The notes under the pieces were generated by a model, which was given only the letters and a program-made list of their open reading frames with translations, was not told the DNA's origin and ran no database searches. A stretch of DNA of 64,000 nt from Candidatus Dormiibacter spiritus. GTDB taxonomy: Bacteria; Chloroflexota; Dormibacteria; Dormibacterales; Dormibacteraceae. Location of the stretch: assembly GCA_003244185.1 (NCBI GenBank), contig QHBT01000065.1, positions 1 to 64,000 on the forward strand, written 5' to 3'. The position numbers and the translations under genes were made by a program. Position 1 is the stretch's first letter. Each line of letters starts with the position of its first letter. This document shows positions 11,610 through 17,909 of this stretch, one piece after another.

Positions 11610-11810
11610 GGCGGGACCTCCTAAGGCTGAAACCGGACGCGTGGGCCGGAGCGGCGCTCGCTAGTGTCGGACCTCAGTGATTCTGGTGACCAGTTGGGAG
11701 CCAGCGTCCGGCTGCTCGGGACATCCGCCGCCTTCCTGGTCGCATGTCAAGCGGCTTTCTCAGCTTTCGTTCGATTGCCTTTCCCGATGGCCGCTCGTAC
11801 GCTCGGCAGC

Positions 11811-13082
11811 ATGACACTCGCTACGGCGCGCACCGACTCAAGTCTCGACAGCCGGCGCTGGATCATCGCCGGGGCGGCCATCGTCATGCAGCTGGCGCTG
11901 GGTGCCGTCTACGCCTGGAGCGTCTTTGTCAAGCCGCTGAAGGATCTGAATCACTGGAGCACCACCCAGGTCAGCCTGACCTTCACGCTCGCCATCTTCT
12001 TCCTCGGCATCGGCTCCACCATCGGCGGCTTCCTGCTTGACCGGGTGGGCCCACGTCTCATGGGGACGATCGCCGGCATCGTCTACGGAATCGGCGTGAT
12101 CGGGGCGTCTTTGGGCGCCCGCAACCTGCCGGTCCTCTATCTCTTCTATGGCGTCATCGGCGGCCTCGGTCTGGGACTGGGCTACATAGTGCCAGTGGCC
12201 ACGCTTGTCAAGTGGTTTCCCGACCGGCGGGGACTCATCACGGGCCTCGCCGTGGGCGGCTTCGGCGCCGGCGCGCTCATCACCGCTCCTGTCGCCACCC
12301 AGCTGATAAAGAGCAGCGGCGTGCCCACCACCTTTCTGAGCCTGGGGATTGTCTATCTACTCGTGGTGGTGGTGGCTGCCCAGTTCTATCGCGCCGCCCC
12401 GGCCGGCTACGCGCCCGCCGGCTGGCAGCCGTCAGAGGTGCAGAAGACACAGCGGGCGGGTAAAGACTTCACCATCGGCCAGGCGTTGGGGCGCTGGCAG
12501 TGGTACTGCCTCTGGCTGATGCTGGCGCTGAACGTGTCAGCCGGCATCATGCTCATCTCGCAGGCGGCGCCCATCGCGCAGGAGGTGACCGGCACCACAG
12601 CCCTGGTCGCGGCCGGGCTGGTGGGTCTGATCTCCATCTTCAACGGCGCCGGCCGGGTCGTCTGGGCCACGATCTCCGACTACATCGGCCGCCGCTATGT
12701 CTTCCTCACCATGTTCCTGCTTCAAGCGGTGATCTTCTTCGTGCTGCCACTGGCAGTCAGCTACCTGTTCTTCGCGGTCCTGGCGTGCGTGATTGCGCTC
12801 TGCTACGGCGGGGGCTTCGGGACCATGCCCGCCTTCGCCGCCGACTACTTCGGGCCCCGCTTCGCCGGTTCGATCTACGGTCTGATGCTGACCGCCTGGG
12901 GTGTGGGCGGGATCGTCGGACCGATTCTCATCGCCCAGGTGCGCGATCGAACCGGCCACTACTCCACAGCCATGTACGTCATCGCGGCGGTGATGCTGAT
13001 CTCGGCGGTGGTGCCGCTCATCATCCGACCGCCGCGCGCTCAAGCGCAGGAGGTGCTCACCGCCCCCGAGCCGGCGGTATGA
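11811..13082 (+). CDS. MFS transporter of the oxalate/formate antiporter (OFA) family
   Basis: Twelve-helix major facilitator of about 423 residues. The N-terminus RRWIIAGAAIVMQLALGAVYAWSVF and the loop motifs between helices 2 and 3 (GGFLLDRVGPR) and 8 and 9 (ISDYIGRRYVF) are typical of the OFA subfamily. Start taken at ATG 11811 (MTLATARTD); ATG 11787 is an alternative. The stop overlaps the next ATG (13079) as ATGA. The following genes encode formate dehydrogenase, so the most likely cargo is formate or oxalate supplied to that enzyme. OFA members with other monocarboxylates exist, so the substrate is inferred from context. Confidence 0.87.
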   Translation: MTLATARTDSSLDSRRWIIAGAAIVMQLALGAVYAWSVFVKPLKDLNHWSTTQVSLTFTLAIFFLGIGSTIGGFLLDRVGPRLMGTIAGIVYGIGVIGASLGARNLPVLYLFYGVIGGLGLGLGYIVPVATLVKWFPDRRGLITGLAVGGFGAGALITAPVATQLIKSSGVPTTFLSLGIVYLLVVVVAAQFYRAAPAGYAPAGWQPSEVQKTQRAGKDFTIGQALGRWQWYCLWLMLALNVSAGIMLISQAAPIAQEVTGTTALVAAGLVGLISIFNGAGRVVWATISDYIGRRYVFLTMFLLQAVIFFVLPLAVSYLFFAVLACVIALCYGGGFGTMPAFAADYFGPRFAGSIYGLMLTAWGVGGIVGPILIAQVRDRTGHYSTAMYVIAAVMLISAVVPLIIRPPRAQAQEVLTAPEPAV

Positions 13083-16000
13083 GGAACCCGCTTGCGCGCT
13101 GGCCGGCCGCCCGCCAGCTGACCGGTCGCGATCGCACCGGCCGGGGCGAGGCGGCGCGCTCCCAGCGCACGATCGAGCTGCAACCCCGCACCCACCAGGC
13201 TGACCGCGTCGTGCAGTCCATCTGTCCGTTCTGCGCTGTCGGCTGTGGGCAGCGAGTCTATGTCCAGAACGAGGTCGTCACGCAGATCGAGGGCGACCCG
13301 GACAGCCCCATCTCACGCGGCCGGCTCTGTCCCAAGGGCGCCGCCAGCCGCAACCTGGTTCAGTCACCCCTACGCGAGTACAGGGTGAGATACAGGCGGC
13401 CGTACGGGACTGAGTGGGAGGACCTGTCCCTCGAGCGAGCTGTCGACATGATCGCGGATCGAGTGATCACCGCGCGGGCGGAGGGCTGGCAGGACCATGA
13501 TGCCGACGGCCGCTCTCTCAACCGCACCCTCGGCGTCGCCAGCCTGGGCGGCGCCACCCTTGACAACGAAGAGAACTACCTGATCAAGAAGCTCTTCACA
13601 GCGCTCGGCATCGTCCAGGTCGAAAACCAGGCCCGCATATGACACAGCGCCACTGTCCCCGGTCTGGGGACAAGCTTCGGTAGGGGCGGCGCCACCACCT
13701 TCCTCCAGGATCTCCAGCACTCCGACTGCATCCTCGTGATGGGGTCGAACATGGCGGAGAATCACCCCGTCGGCTTCCAGTGGGTCATGGAGGCGAAGCT
13801 CAAGGGCGCGCCCGTGATTCACGTCGATCCTCGGTTCACGCGAACCAGCGCCAACGCCAGCTTCCATGTGCCCATTCGGGCCGGCAGCGACATCGCCTTC
13901 CTGGGCGGCATAGTCCACCACATCCTGGAGACCGACAGCTGGTTCAAGGACTATGTCCTGCCCTACACGAACGCGGCCAACATTGTGGGCGAGAAGTTCC
14001 GCGACACCGAGGACCTGGATGGCCTGTTCAGCGGCTGGGATCCTGCCAAGGAGGGCTACGACACCGCGAGCTGGCAGTTTGCGGGAATGGCCAAGGCCAA
14101 TTCAGCCCCGGAGGGCCAGGGCAGTGCCGCCAAGGCGGAGCCCAGCGGCGGCCTGGGCGGCGGTCTGGCCGACGCCGAGCCCGAGCGAGACGAGACGCTG
14201 CAGCATCCGCGCTGCGTCTTCCAGCTGCTGAAGCGGCACTTCAGCCGCTACACGCCGGAGATGGTGGAGGAGCTGACGGGTGTCCCCCGGGAGCGCTTCG
14301 TCCAGGTGGCCGAGCTGCTCTGCGCCAACTCAGGGCGTGAGCGCACGTCGGCCATCGTTTATTCGGTCGGCTGGACCCAGCACACAGTCGGCGTCCAGCT
14401 CATCCGCACTGCCGCGATCATCCAGCTCCTGCTGGGCAACATTGGCCGGCCTGGCGGCGGCATCATGGCGCTGCGCGGACACGCCAGCATCCAGGGCTCG
14501 ACCGACATCCCGACCCTCTACGACCTGCTGCCTGGCTACATCCCAATGCCGCACGCCGAGGATCAAGACCTCCAGACCTATCTCGACGGCCACGTGAAGA
14601 GCGGCGGTGGCTGGGCCAGACTGGACAGCTACCTGATCAGCCTTCTGAAGGCGTACTGGGGCGAGGCGGCCACGCCCGAGAACGACATGAACTACGGCCG
14701 CCTGCCGCGCATTGACAAGGACCACTCGACCTATCGCACGGCCATCGCAATGCTGGAGGGCAACGTCAAGGGCTACTTCCTGCCTGGTGAGAACCCCGCG
14801 GTCGGCTCCGCCAACGGCAAGCTGCAGCGGGCCGCGATGGCGCAGCTGGACTGGCTCGTGGTGCGGGATCTGTTCCTGATCGAGAGCGCCACCTTCTGGC
14901 AGGACGGGCCGGAGGTGGCCGGCGGCCAAACTCGGCCTGAGGACTGCAAGACTGAGGTTTTCTTCCTGCCGGCGGCTGCCCACACGGAGAAGAGCGGCAG
15001 CTTCACCAACACGCAGCGGCTGGTGCAGTGGCACCACCAGGCGATCGAGCCGCCCGGAGACTGCCGCAGCGAGCTGTGGTTCTACTACCACCTGGGCCGC
15101 GTCATCCGCGAGAAGCTGGCCGCTGCCAAGGACCCGCGCGATCGGGGAATTCTGGAGCTGACCTGGGACTACGGAGCGTCAGGTCCAAAGGCCGAGCCCA
15201 GCGCCGAGGCTGTTCTGCGGGAGATCAACGGCTGGGATCAGAGAGGGCGCCCGCTGAGCGGCTTCGCCGAGCTGAAAGCCGACGGCTCCACGGCATGCGG
15301 CTGCTGGATCTACTCAGGGATCTATGCCGACGGCGTGAACCAAGCCGCGCGGAAGAAGCCGGGCAGCGAGCAATCCTGGGTGGCACCGGAGTGGGCCTGG
15401 GCCTGGCCGGCCAACCGCCGTCAGCTTTACAACCGAGCGTCAGCAGACCCGGCCGGAAACCCCTGGAGCGAGCGCAAGCGCTATGTCTGGTGGGACGCCG
15501 AGCGGGCTGAGTGGCAGGGCGATGACGTGCCCGACTTCAACCGCACCAAGGAGCCCCAATACCAGCCGGGCGAGGGCGCCAGTGGCGACGCCGCGCTGTC
15601 CGGCGACGCGCCCTTCATCATGCAGGGGGATGGCCGCGGTTGGCTTTACGCGCCCTCCGCGGTCCTGGACGCCCCGCTGCCGCCGCACTACGAGCCGCAC
15701 GAGTCACCCGTCCGCAACCGCCTCTACGAGCAGGAGGCGAACCCGATGCGGGAGATCTACAACCATCCGCTCAACCCTTACAACGAGGACCCGGAGAAGT
15801 ACCCGTTTGTAATGACCACCTATCGCCTGACCGAGCATCACACGGCCGGCGCCATGAGCCGCAACGTGCCTGTGCTGAGCGAGCTCCAGCCTGAATTCTT
15901 CTGCGAGATCAGCCCCGAGCTGGCCGAGCTTCGGGGCCTGGAGCAGGGCGGCTACGCGGCGATCATCACTGCCCGCGGCCGGATCCATGCCCGGGTCATG

Positions 16001-16207
16001 GTGACCGATCGCATAGCGCCGCTGCAGGTGGCCGGCAAGACCCTCCATCAGGTGGGCCTGCCCTACCACTGGGGCCAGCGCGGCCTCACGCGCGGCGACT
16101 CGGCCAACGACGCGTTCCCCATAGTGCTCGATCCCAACGTGCACATCCAGGAGGTGAAGGCGGCCACCTGCGACATCCGGGCGGCGGAGCGACCGAAGTG
16201 GCCGTAA
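13079..16207 (+). CDS. fdhA: Formate dehydrogenase catalytic subunit, selenocysteine-containing
   Basis: Molybdopterin (Mo/W-bisMGD) formate dehydrogenase of 1042 residues, oxidising formate to CO2. The N-terminal [4Fe-4S] site is CPFCAVGC (Cys 49, 52, 56) plus GRLCPKG (Cys 84). The active site reads ENQARI-U-HSATVPGLG, where U is encoded by an in-frame TGA at 13640-13642 (residue 188). The same frame continues without any other stop to 16207, with conserved family sequence on both sides (SLGGATLDNEENYLIKKL before, FGRGGATTFLQDLQ after). A SECIS hairpin follows the TGA. Conventional gene calling would split this gene into a 13079-13642 piece and a second piece from about 13736. No Tat signal is visible, so the enzyme may be cytoplasmic-facing. 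Overlaps the transporter gene by 4 bases and fdhB by 10. Confidence 0.95.
13640..13675 (+). promoter_or_regulatory. Selenocysteine TGA codon and bacterial SECIS hairpin
   Basis: The TGA at 13640-13642 is followed by a hairpin with a perfect 7-bp stem TGTCCCC / GGGGACA (13654-13660 and 13666-13672) and apical loop GGTCT (13661-13665). The loop lies 18 bases after the TGA. In Escherichia coli fdhF the SelB-binding SECIS element also presents GGUCU in its apical loop 18 bases after the UGA. This element would recruit SelB with Sec-tRNA to decode the UGA. selA, selB, selC and selD are not in the window. Confidence 0.92.
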
Positions 16208-17040
16208 GCAGCGGCCCGCCGCCCTATCCCGGCGAGGTCTTGGTCCAGCCGGTAGCGGGGGACGAGGTGGGCTTCTTCACCGACAGCTCCATCTGCATAG
16301 GCTGCAAGGCCTGTGAAGTCGCCTGCAAGCAGTGGAACAACGTGCCGGTGGACGACATCCGCTACCTGAACAGCTCCTATGACAACACAGGCGAGCTGTC
16401 CGCCAACAGCTGGCGGCACGTGAGCTTCTTCGAGCAGAAGCGCGACGGCGGAGTCGCCTGGCTCATGAACTCCGATGTCTGCAAGCACTGCAAGCACGCC
16501 GCCTGCCTGGACGTCTGCCCCACCGGCGCCATCTTCAGGACCGAGTTCGACACGGTGGTCGTGCAGGCCGATGTCTGCAACGGCTGCGGCTACTGCATTC
16601 CCGCCTGCCCATTCGGCGTGCTGACCCGACGCGAGGGCGTGGTCGATCAGCCGGCTGAGACGCACGTTGCCCAGAAGTGCACGATGTGCTACGACCGGCT
16701 CAAAGGGGGGGACGAGCCGGCTTGCGCCCAGGCCTGCCCCACCAAGTCGATCCAGTTCGGCCCGCTGCCCGCTCTGCGGGAGCGAGCGCAGCGTCGCTTG
16801 GACGTGCTGCACCAAGAGGGGGTTGACTCGGCGCGGCTTTACCTGGCTGACCAATCAGACAATGAGATCGGCGGCGCCGGCGCGTTCTTCCTGCTCCTCG
16901 ATGAGCCGGCCAAGTACCGCTACCCCGAACGTCCGATCACGCCCACCAAGCGCCTTGGGGGCATGTGGCTGGCGGCGGCCGCGGCGGCCGCGGTCGCTCT
17001 CGCCGGCGTGGGCGCAGCGGCGGCAAGCGGCCGCCGTTGA
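16198..17040 (+). CDS. fdhB: Formate dehydrogenase iron-sulfur subunit with C-terminal membrane anchor
   Basis: Electron-transfer subunit of 280 residues. Four ferredoxin-like cysteine groups are visible: CIGCKACEVAC, CKHCKHAACLDVC, CNGCGYCIPAC and CTMCYDRLKGGDEPACAQAC, giving four [4Fe-4S] clusters as in FdnH/HybA proteins. Near the C-terminus an alanine-rich helix (MWLAAAAAAAVALAGVGAAAA) could anchor it to the membrane, as FdnH does. The start is GTG 16198, inside the end of fdhA (10-base overlap), and the stop overlaps the next gene. It would carry electrons from the catalytic subunit to the NrfD-like membrane protein. Confidence 0.93.
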   Translation: MAVSSGPPPYPGEVLVQPVAGDEVGFFTDSSICIGCKACEVACKQWNNVPVDDIRYLNSSYDNTGELSANSWRHVSFFEQKRDGGVAWLMNSDVCKHCKHAACLDVCPTGAIFRTEFDTVVVQADVCNGCGYCIPACPFGVLTRREGVVDQPAETHVAQKCTMCYDRLKGGDEPACAQACPTKSIQFGPLPALRERAQRRLDVLHQEGVDSARLYLADQSDNEIGGAGAFFLLLDEPAKYRYPERPITPTKRLGGMWLAAAAAAAVALAGVGAAAASGRR

Positions 17041-17909
17041 CAGCGCAGACAACCGCTGAGGGGGGCTACTACGGCCGCCCGGTCCTGAAGGAACCCGTCT
17101 GGAAGCCGGAGGTGGCCGTTTACTTCTGGCTGGGCGGGCTGGCCGGAATTTCGGCGGTGCTCGGCTTTGCGGCCCGGCTTTCCGGGAACGACCGTCTGGC
17201 GCGGAGCGCCTGGTTCACAGCCTTTGCGGCGCTGCTGCCGTGCCCGCCGCTGCTCATAGTCGATCTGGGCAGACCCGAGCGTTTCTACAACATGCTGCGC
17301 GTCCTGAAGCCGACCTCTCCCATGAGCATGGGCACGTGGGTTCTCACCGCGTTCGGTGGGGTTACCGCCGCGGCGGCCGCGGGTGAACTGCTGGGCGGCA
17401 TCTTTGCCACCCTCGGCCGGGTGGCCGAAGGCGCAGCCGCGCTGCTGGGGCTGCCGCTGGCGACGTACACAGCTGTGCTGCTGGCTGATACGTCGGTTCC
17501 GGTCTGGCATCACGCGCGCCATCACCTCCCCTTCGTTTTCGCCGGCAGCGCCACCGCCAGCGCGGGCGCGGCGGGCGCGATCCTCACCCCCTCTCAGCAT
17601 TCACGACCGGCTCGCCTGGCGGCGATCTTCGGGGCGCTGCTGGAGCTCGGCGCGGCGTTTGCGATGGAGCGGCGGCTGGGCCCCGACGCCCGCCACTACC
17701 ACGAGGGCGCGGCGGCGCGACCGGCCCAGGCGGCGCGCGCGTTGACAGGCGCGGGCGCGGCGCTGATGACTCTGGGCGGCAGGCGGCCGGTGGCGATGGC
17801 CGCGGGAGTGCTGCTCCTGGCGGGCTCGCTGGCCGAGCGGTTTGCAGTCCTGAGGGCCGGCCCCAGCTCGGCCCGAGCCACCGCCGACGGAGGCACAGTC
17901 CGGGGCTAA
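17037..17909 (+). CDS. NrfD/PsrC-family membrane subunit of the formate dehydrogenase
   Basis: Polytopic membrane protein of about 290 residues. About eight hydrophobic helices are present, with the NrfD-type LGRPERFYNMLRVLKPTSPMSMGTWVL segment that lies near the quinone site in PsrC/NrfD proteins. The chosen start is TTG 17037, overlapping the fdhB stop as TTGA and giving LTAQTTAEGGYYGRPVLKEP, the usual short N-terminal stretch before the first helix. This replaces the b-type cytochrome (FdnI) found in Escherichia coli, and no haem-ligand His pattern is evident. It probably passes electrons to the quinone pool. Alanine-rich and very GC-rich. Confidence 0.88.
   Translation: MTAQTTAEGGYYGRPVLKEPVWKPEVAVYFWLGGLAGISAVLGFAARLSGNDRLARSAWFTAFAALLPCPPLLIVDLGRPERFYNMLRVLKPTSPMSMGTWVLTAFGGVTAAAAAGELLGGIFATLGRVAEGAAALLGLPLATYTAVLLADTSVPVWHHARHHLPFVFAGSATASAGAAGAILTPSQHSRPARLAAIFGALLELGAAFAMERRLGPDARHYHEGAAARPAQAARALTGAGAALMTLGGRRPVAMAAGVLLLAGSLAERFAVLRAGPSSARATADGGTVRG

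Follow-up and report, generated by a model that had tools for sequence, protein, structure and literature searches.

The window analysed here is a 64,000-nucleotide stretch of contig QHBT01000065.1 from Candidatus Dormiibacter spiritus, whose genome is available as a draft (2.96 Mb in 71 contigs, 92.9% complete, genus Ca. Dormiibacter). Between positions 11664 and 17909 we identified the following genes and features:

11664..13082, plus strand: MFS transporter of the oxalate/formate-lactate type (profile and Pfam matches)
13079..16207, plus strand: formate dehydrogenase alpha subunit, predicted Sec at residue 188 (NF041513 profile match, Pfam domains and structure alignment)
13640..13642, plus strand: in-frame TGA at codon 188, predicted to be read as selenocysteine (Sec position of 1h0h, 9rk1 and 9qm0 in the alignment)
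13654..13672, plus strand: putative SECIS hairpin with stem TGTCCCC (13654-13660) / GGGGACA (13666-13672) and loop GGTCT (13661-13665) (folding and comparison)
16198..17040, plus strand: beta subunit with 4Fe-4S motifs of the ferredoxin type; a stretch at its C terminus is hydrophobic (profile and Pfam matches)
16965..17909, plus strand: NrfD-type membrane subunit (PF03916), whose true start is probably downstream of 16965

A formate dehydrogenase gene with one internal TGA

The frame from 13079 to 16207 translates into 1042 residues with a single internal TGA and a terminal TAA. A first-pass annotation of this DNA had described the frame as uninterrupted save for the TGA at 13640-13642; our translation agrees with this, and the flanking residues, ENQARI-U-HSATVPGLGTSFGRGG, are as it had quoted them. 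The alpha protein matched the NCBIfam model NF041513 (formate_DH_Act) over its whole length (residues 5-1040) with 1830.2 bits, where the curated cut-off is 1400 bits, and it matched TIGR01553 with 958 bits. Pfam searches detected 4Fe-4S, molybdopterin and dinucleotide (MGD)-binding domains. Identity to its relatives was 62-97% over about 1042 residues, with 97% to the sister species Candidatus Dormiibacter inghamiae and 62-66% to actinobacterial members. Among solved structures, the best matches are formate dehydrogenases that are described as containing selenocysteine, and residue 188 aligns on their Sec site. There, the deposited chains print X (1h0h and 9rk1) or C (9qm0). The alignment bears out the earlier placing of the TGA at the Sec/Cys position. 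A frame of 1042 codons that matches its family over the full length with 1830 bits, and whose only internal stop lies at the catalytic residue, leads us to reject chance.

The gene is closely packed with its neighbors. Its start codon (ATG, 13079) shares bases with the stop codon of the MFS gene upstream (TGA, 13080-13082), and the beta frame begins inside the final codons of alpha. Of the 72 alpha relatives with enough flanking sequence, 66 have a relative of the beta subunit and 67 one of the NrfD subunit at the same locus. The linkage between the MFS and fdh genes is present in the sister species and is not widely kept. No twin-arginine motif was seen in the first 45 residues of the alpha subunit; thus, the active site is likely to be cytoplasmic and to feed electrons to the quinone pool.

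The hairpin and the codon among relatives

Counted from the TGA, the stem of the hairpin begins at 11 nt and the loop at 18 nt. The first-pass annotation had placed the hairpin 18 bases behind the TGA, which is correct for the loop GGTCT and incorrect for the stem. The 19-mer hairpin alone folds with -11.9 kcal/mol (z -2.6). Folding of the 46-nt region was no better than that of shuffled sequences, and seven pairs arise in 8% of random synonymous codings of the same peptide. The hairpin of the lone gene is therefore weak evidence and statistically not unusual. It is significant because it is kept across relatives, not by single-sequence folding.

Nearly all of 57 distinct sequences form standard pairs at the six inner positions; the seventh, outermost pair shows no such conservation among the relatives. 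Counted over the entire stem, 93% of the cells are paired, as compared to 37-61% when the partner was slid. Pair 17-29 occurs as C-G, U-A, U-G, G-C or G-U and pair 18-28 as C-G or G-C, and the Val and Gly codon changes behind this covariation are synonymous in the main group. The stem is continuous, without a bulged U, in this gene and its relatives. The loop reads GGTCT, AGTCT or AGTTT in all 57 sequences, and the Gly/Ser codon at its start is always GGT or AGT in the main group (53 of 53 distinct sequences). Elsewhere in these genes, GGT makes up 9.6% of the Gly codons and AGT 3.9% of the Ser codons. Compensatory pairs together with rare codons argue compellingly that the hairpin has been maintained beyond the constraint of the protein.

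The only Cys (TGC) homologue, that of Actinomadura logoneensis (L093), has a decayed hairpin with four of seven pairs and the common codons GGG and CTC. Its genome, with the Cys-type formate dehydrogenase, retains a UCA tRNA-Sec. A second TGA-type formate dehydrogenase paralogue occurs in the class of Ca. Dormiibacter, 44-49% identical (L123, L125, L126 and L128-L130), and carries the hairpin GGTGGTC-AGTTT-GGCCGCC at the same spacing.

The codon at the site is TGA in 105 of 109 related loci, TAG in three and TGC in one. The three TAG loci belong to Blastococcus and Geodermatophilus, and their genomes carry a tRNA-Sec with the anticodon CUA. The UAG-Sec variant of Geodermatophilaceae is already known (PMC5330540, with reference to Mukai 2016). 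Codon and tRNA-Sec anticodon change together, and this argues independently for decoding of the position by tRNA-Sec. Near-cognate suppression of the UGA, or a reassigned code in which it stands for Trp or the like, is accordingly a very improbable substitute for Sec, and we found nothing in its favor: besides the relatives' codon tracking the anticodon (TAG with CUA), the neighboring genes end at TGA, and the codon lies at the Sec/Cys site with the hairpin conserved alongside. Although the source is a draft of 71 contigs, there is hardly any chance that a sequencing or assembly error conceals the TGC or TGT codon of an ordinary Cys enzyme, since the TGA is found in nearly all of the relatives counted above and, with the same hairpin, in a second, independent assembly, from the sister species (L022/L108). 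The first-pass annotation had named TGC or TGT at 13640 as the result that would overturn its reading, and the sister-species assembly answers this as far as possible.

Selenocysteine machinery in the host and in related genomes

The host genome encodes a tRNA-Sec (selC) with anticodon UCA (74.8 bits, cut-off 47). Its selA gene (486 bits) adjoins selB (325 bits) on contig C45, and selD was matched with 348 bits. The catalytic motif of selD, HGAG-U-ACK, itself includes one in-frame TGA, and selD would thus be a second selenoprotein gene of the genome; the match lies at 1501-2412 of L017 (G000:C35), with the TGA as codon 11 of the matched stretch. A candidate hairpin follows this TGA. FdhD, a formate dehydrogenase accessory protein, is also encoded. 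The full Sec-decoding system implied by the first-pass annotation, selA, selB, selC and selD, is hence found in a single assembly. A lack of selB and selC had been named there as a second result that would overturn the reading, and the genome shows the opposite.

UGA is formally a stop codon and serves as one in the genes next to fdh, but we regard it as exceedingly unlikely that translation ends at the TGA and leaves a dead remainder, as in a pseudogene or truncation, because the 854 codons past the TGA are under the same coding constraint (as seen in the full-length profile match and the identity to relatives), the downstream subunits are intact and the Sec system of the genome is complete. 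Selenocysteine at residue 188 is the reading that we adopt. The product of 13079-16207 is almost certainly the catalytic subunit of a Mo/W-bisMGD formate dehydrogenase, made by hairpin-directed readthrough of UGA with Sec at residue 188, which passes electrons from formate to the quinone pool; both Sec insertion and enzyme activity are predicted here from sequence. By analogy with the mechanism in E. coli, SelB carrying Sec-tRNA-Sec(UCA) would be held by the hairpin at 13654-13672 when the ribosome meets the UGA at 13640, and Sec would be inserted in place of termination. The subunit make-up suggests that the alpha, beta and NrfD-type subunits together would oxidise formate, with the electrons moving via Fe-S clusters to the quinone pool.

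We examined how far this trait extends in 61 genomes sampled around the host. The selB gene scored over the cut-off in 50 of them, and tRNA-Sec did so in 32 when the E-value limit was strict. With a looser limit, 13 of 16 other genomes that were searched again gave a tRNA-Sec of 54-59 bits, its anticodon being UCA where checked. The best match in G042, G048 and G060 at the looser limit was a tRNA-Ser, probably because these drafts are incomplete. Most selB-bearing genomes have formate dehydrogenase-type genes with one TGA. These counts indicate that the Sec trait is the norm in this class, and they contradict the earlier view that selenoproteins are patchy in the group. Four f2 genomes (G037, G043, G047 and G057) lack both a selB over the limit and a formate dehydrogenase match. 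Family f3 of the same class had appeared to possess selB and a TGA-type formate dehydrogenase without tRNA-Sec; this was an effect of the strict limit and was rejected when nine of the 12 f3 genomes searched again were positive at the looser one.

The first-pass annotation had also expected software to present the gene as two broken ones. This is not the case for the RefSeq homologues of Arthrobacter (on a plasmid) and Thermomicrobium (on a replicon), each of which is given as one CDS across the TGA and annotated 'formate dehydrogenase', and NCBIfam has a dedicated model in NF041513.

Two further observations were made in relatives. The plasmid pYA7-1a of Arthrobacter sp. YA7-1 (L182, NZ_CP110115.1), typed as conjugative, carries a TGA-type fdh with beta, nrfD, selD, tRNA-Sec UCA, selA and selB. 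This complete Sec cassette adjoins a Tn3-family transposase and is a mobile Sec trait. The genome of Geodermatophilus sp. LHW52908 appears to have two tRNA-Sec genes, with anticodons CUA and UCA (loci L162, G063:C17, 1173-1263 and 1579-2157; L166, G063:C11, 1501-1592; and L174). The CUA tRNA-Sec adjoins selA and selD, and the formate dehydrogenase of the genome uses TAG. About 320 nt separate the UCA tRNA-Sec (81.8 bits) from a peroxidase-related, AhpD-like gene (TIGR01926) that has an in-frame TGA at CFY-U-MESHAEF followed by a 7-bp hairpin. A single genome may thus employ both UAG and UGA as Sec codons. The contig of the UCA tRNA-Sec has a lower GC content (67%, versus 74-79%) and the gene lies beside a transposase fragment; it may therefore come from recent transfer or contamination.

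Significance and comparison with known systems

The gene is an ordinary member of a well-known and widespread enzyme family. No bacterial selenoproteins are more widespread than the formate dehydrogenase alpha subunit and SelD (PMC5029168), and selenoproteins of Chloroflexi have been on record since 2006 (PMC1794560); thus, the general view of Sec is unchanged by this gene. For Ca. Dormiibacter, a little-studied group of uncultured soil bacteria, the survey shows Sec decoding to be a general rather than a sporadic trait of the surrounding genomes that were sampled. Formate as an energy source in this group is supported as well. Our literature search found no paper that pairs 'Dormibacterota' with selenocysteine.

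The closest known system is the family already modelled as NF041513, with which the gene shares the whole-length match, the TGA that nearly all relatives have in this place and the nearby beta and NrfD genes. It differs from the actinobacterial-type members in its host, which belongs to Dormibacterota. The Desulfovibrio-type FdhA proteins (1h0h, 9qm0, 9rk1 and 8cm4) and E. coli FDH-N (1kqf) have Sec at the aligned site, the same domains and a near full-length alignment. Unlike them, the protein described here has no visible twin-arginine signal, and it is accompanied by an NrfD-type membrane subunit.

In the SECIS element of E. coli fdhF, the GGUCU loop starts 18 nt and the stem 11 nt after the UGA, and the stem contains a bulged U. 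The hairpin of Ca. Dormiibacter has the same loop at the same spacing, so that the match in spacing and loop sequence claimed in the first-pass annotation stands. The stem differs, being continuous over 6-7 bp here with no bulged U. Actinobacteria and Dormibacterota might share a distinct SECIS, with a continuous 6-7-bp stem, a GGUCU, AGUCU or AGUUU loop and no bulged U, which their SelB would recognise by contacts unlike those of E. coli SelB; we offer this tentatively and consider it rather doubtful at present. The UAG-Sec formate dehydrogenases of Geodermatophilaceae belong to the same enzyme family and have the same hairpin, but they use UAG with a CUA tRNA-Sec, whereas the gene studied here has UGA and its genome a UCA tRNA-Sec.
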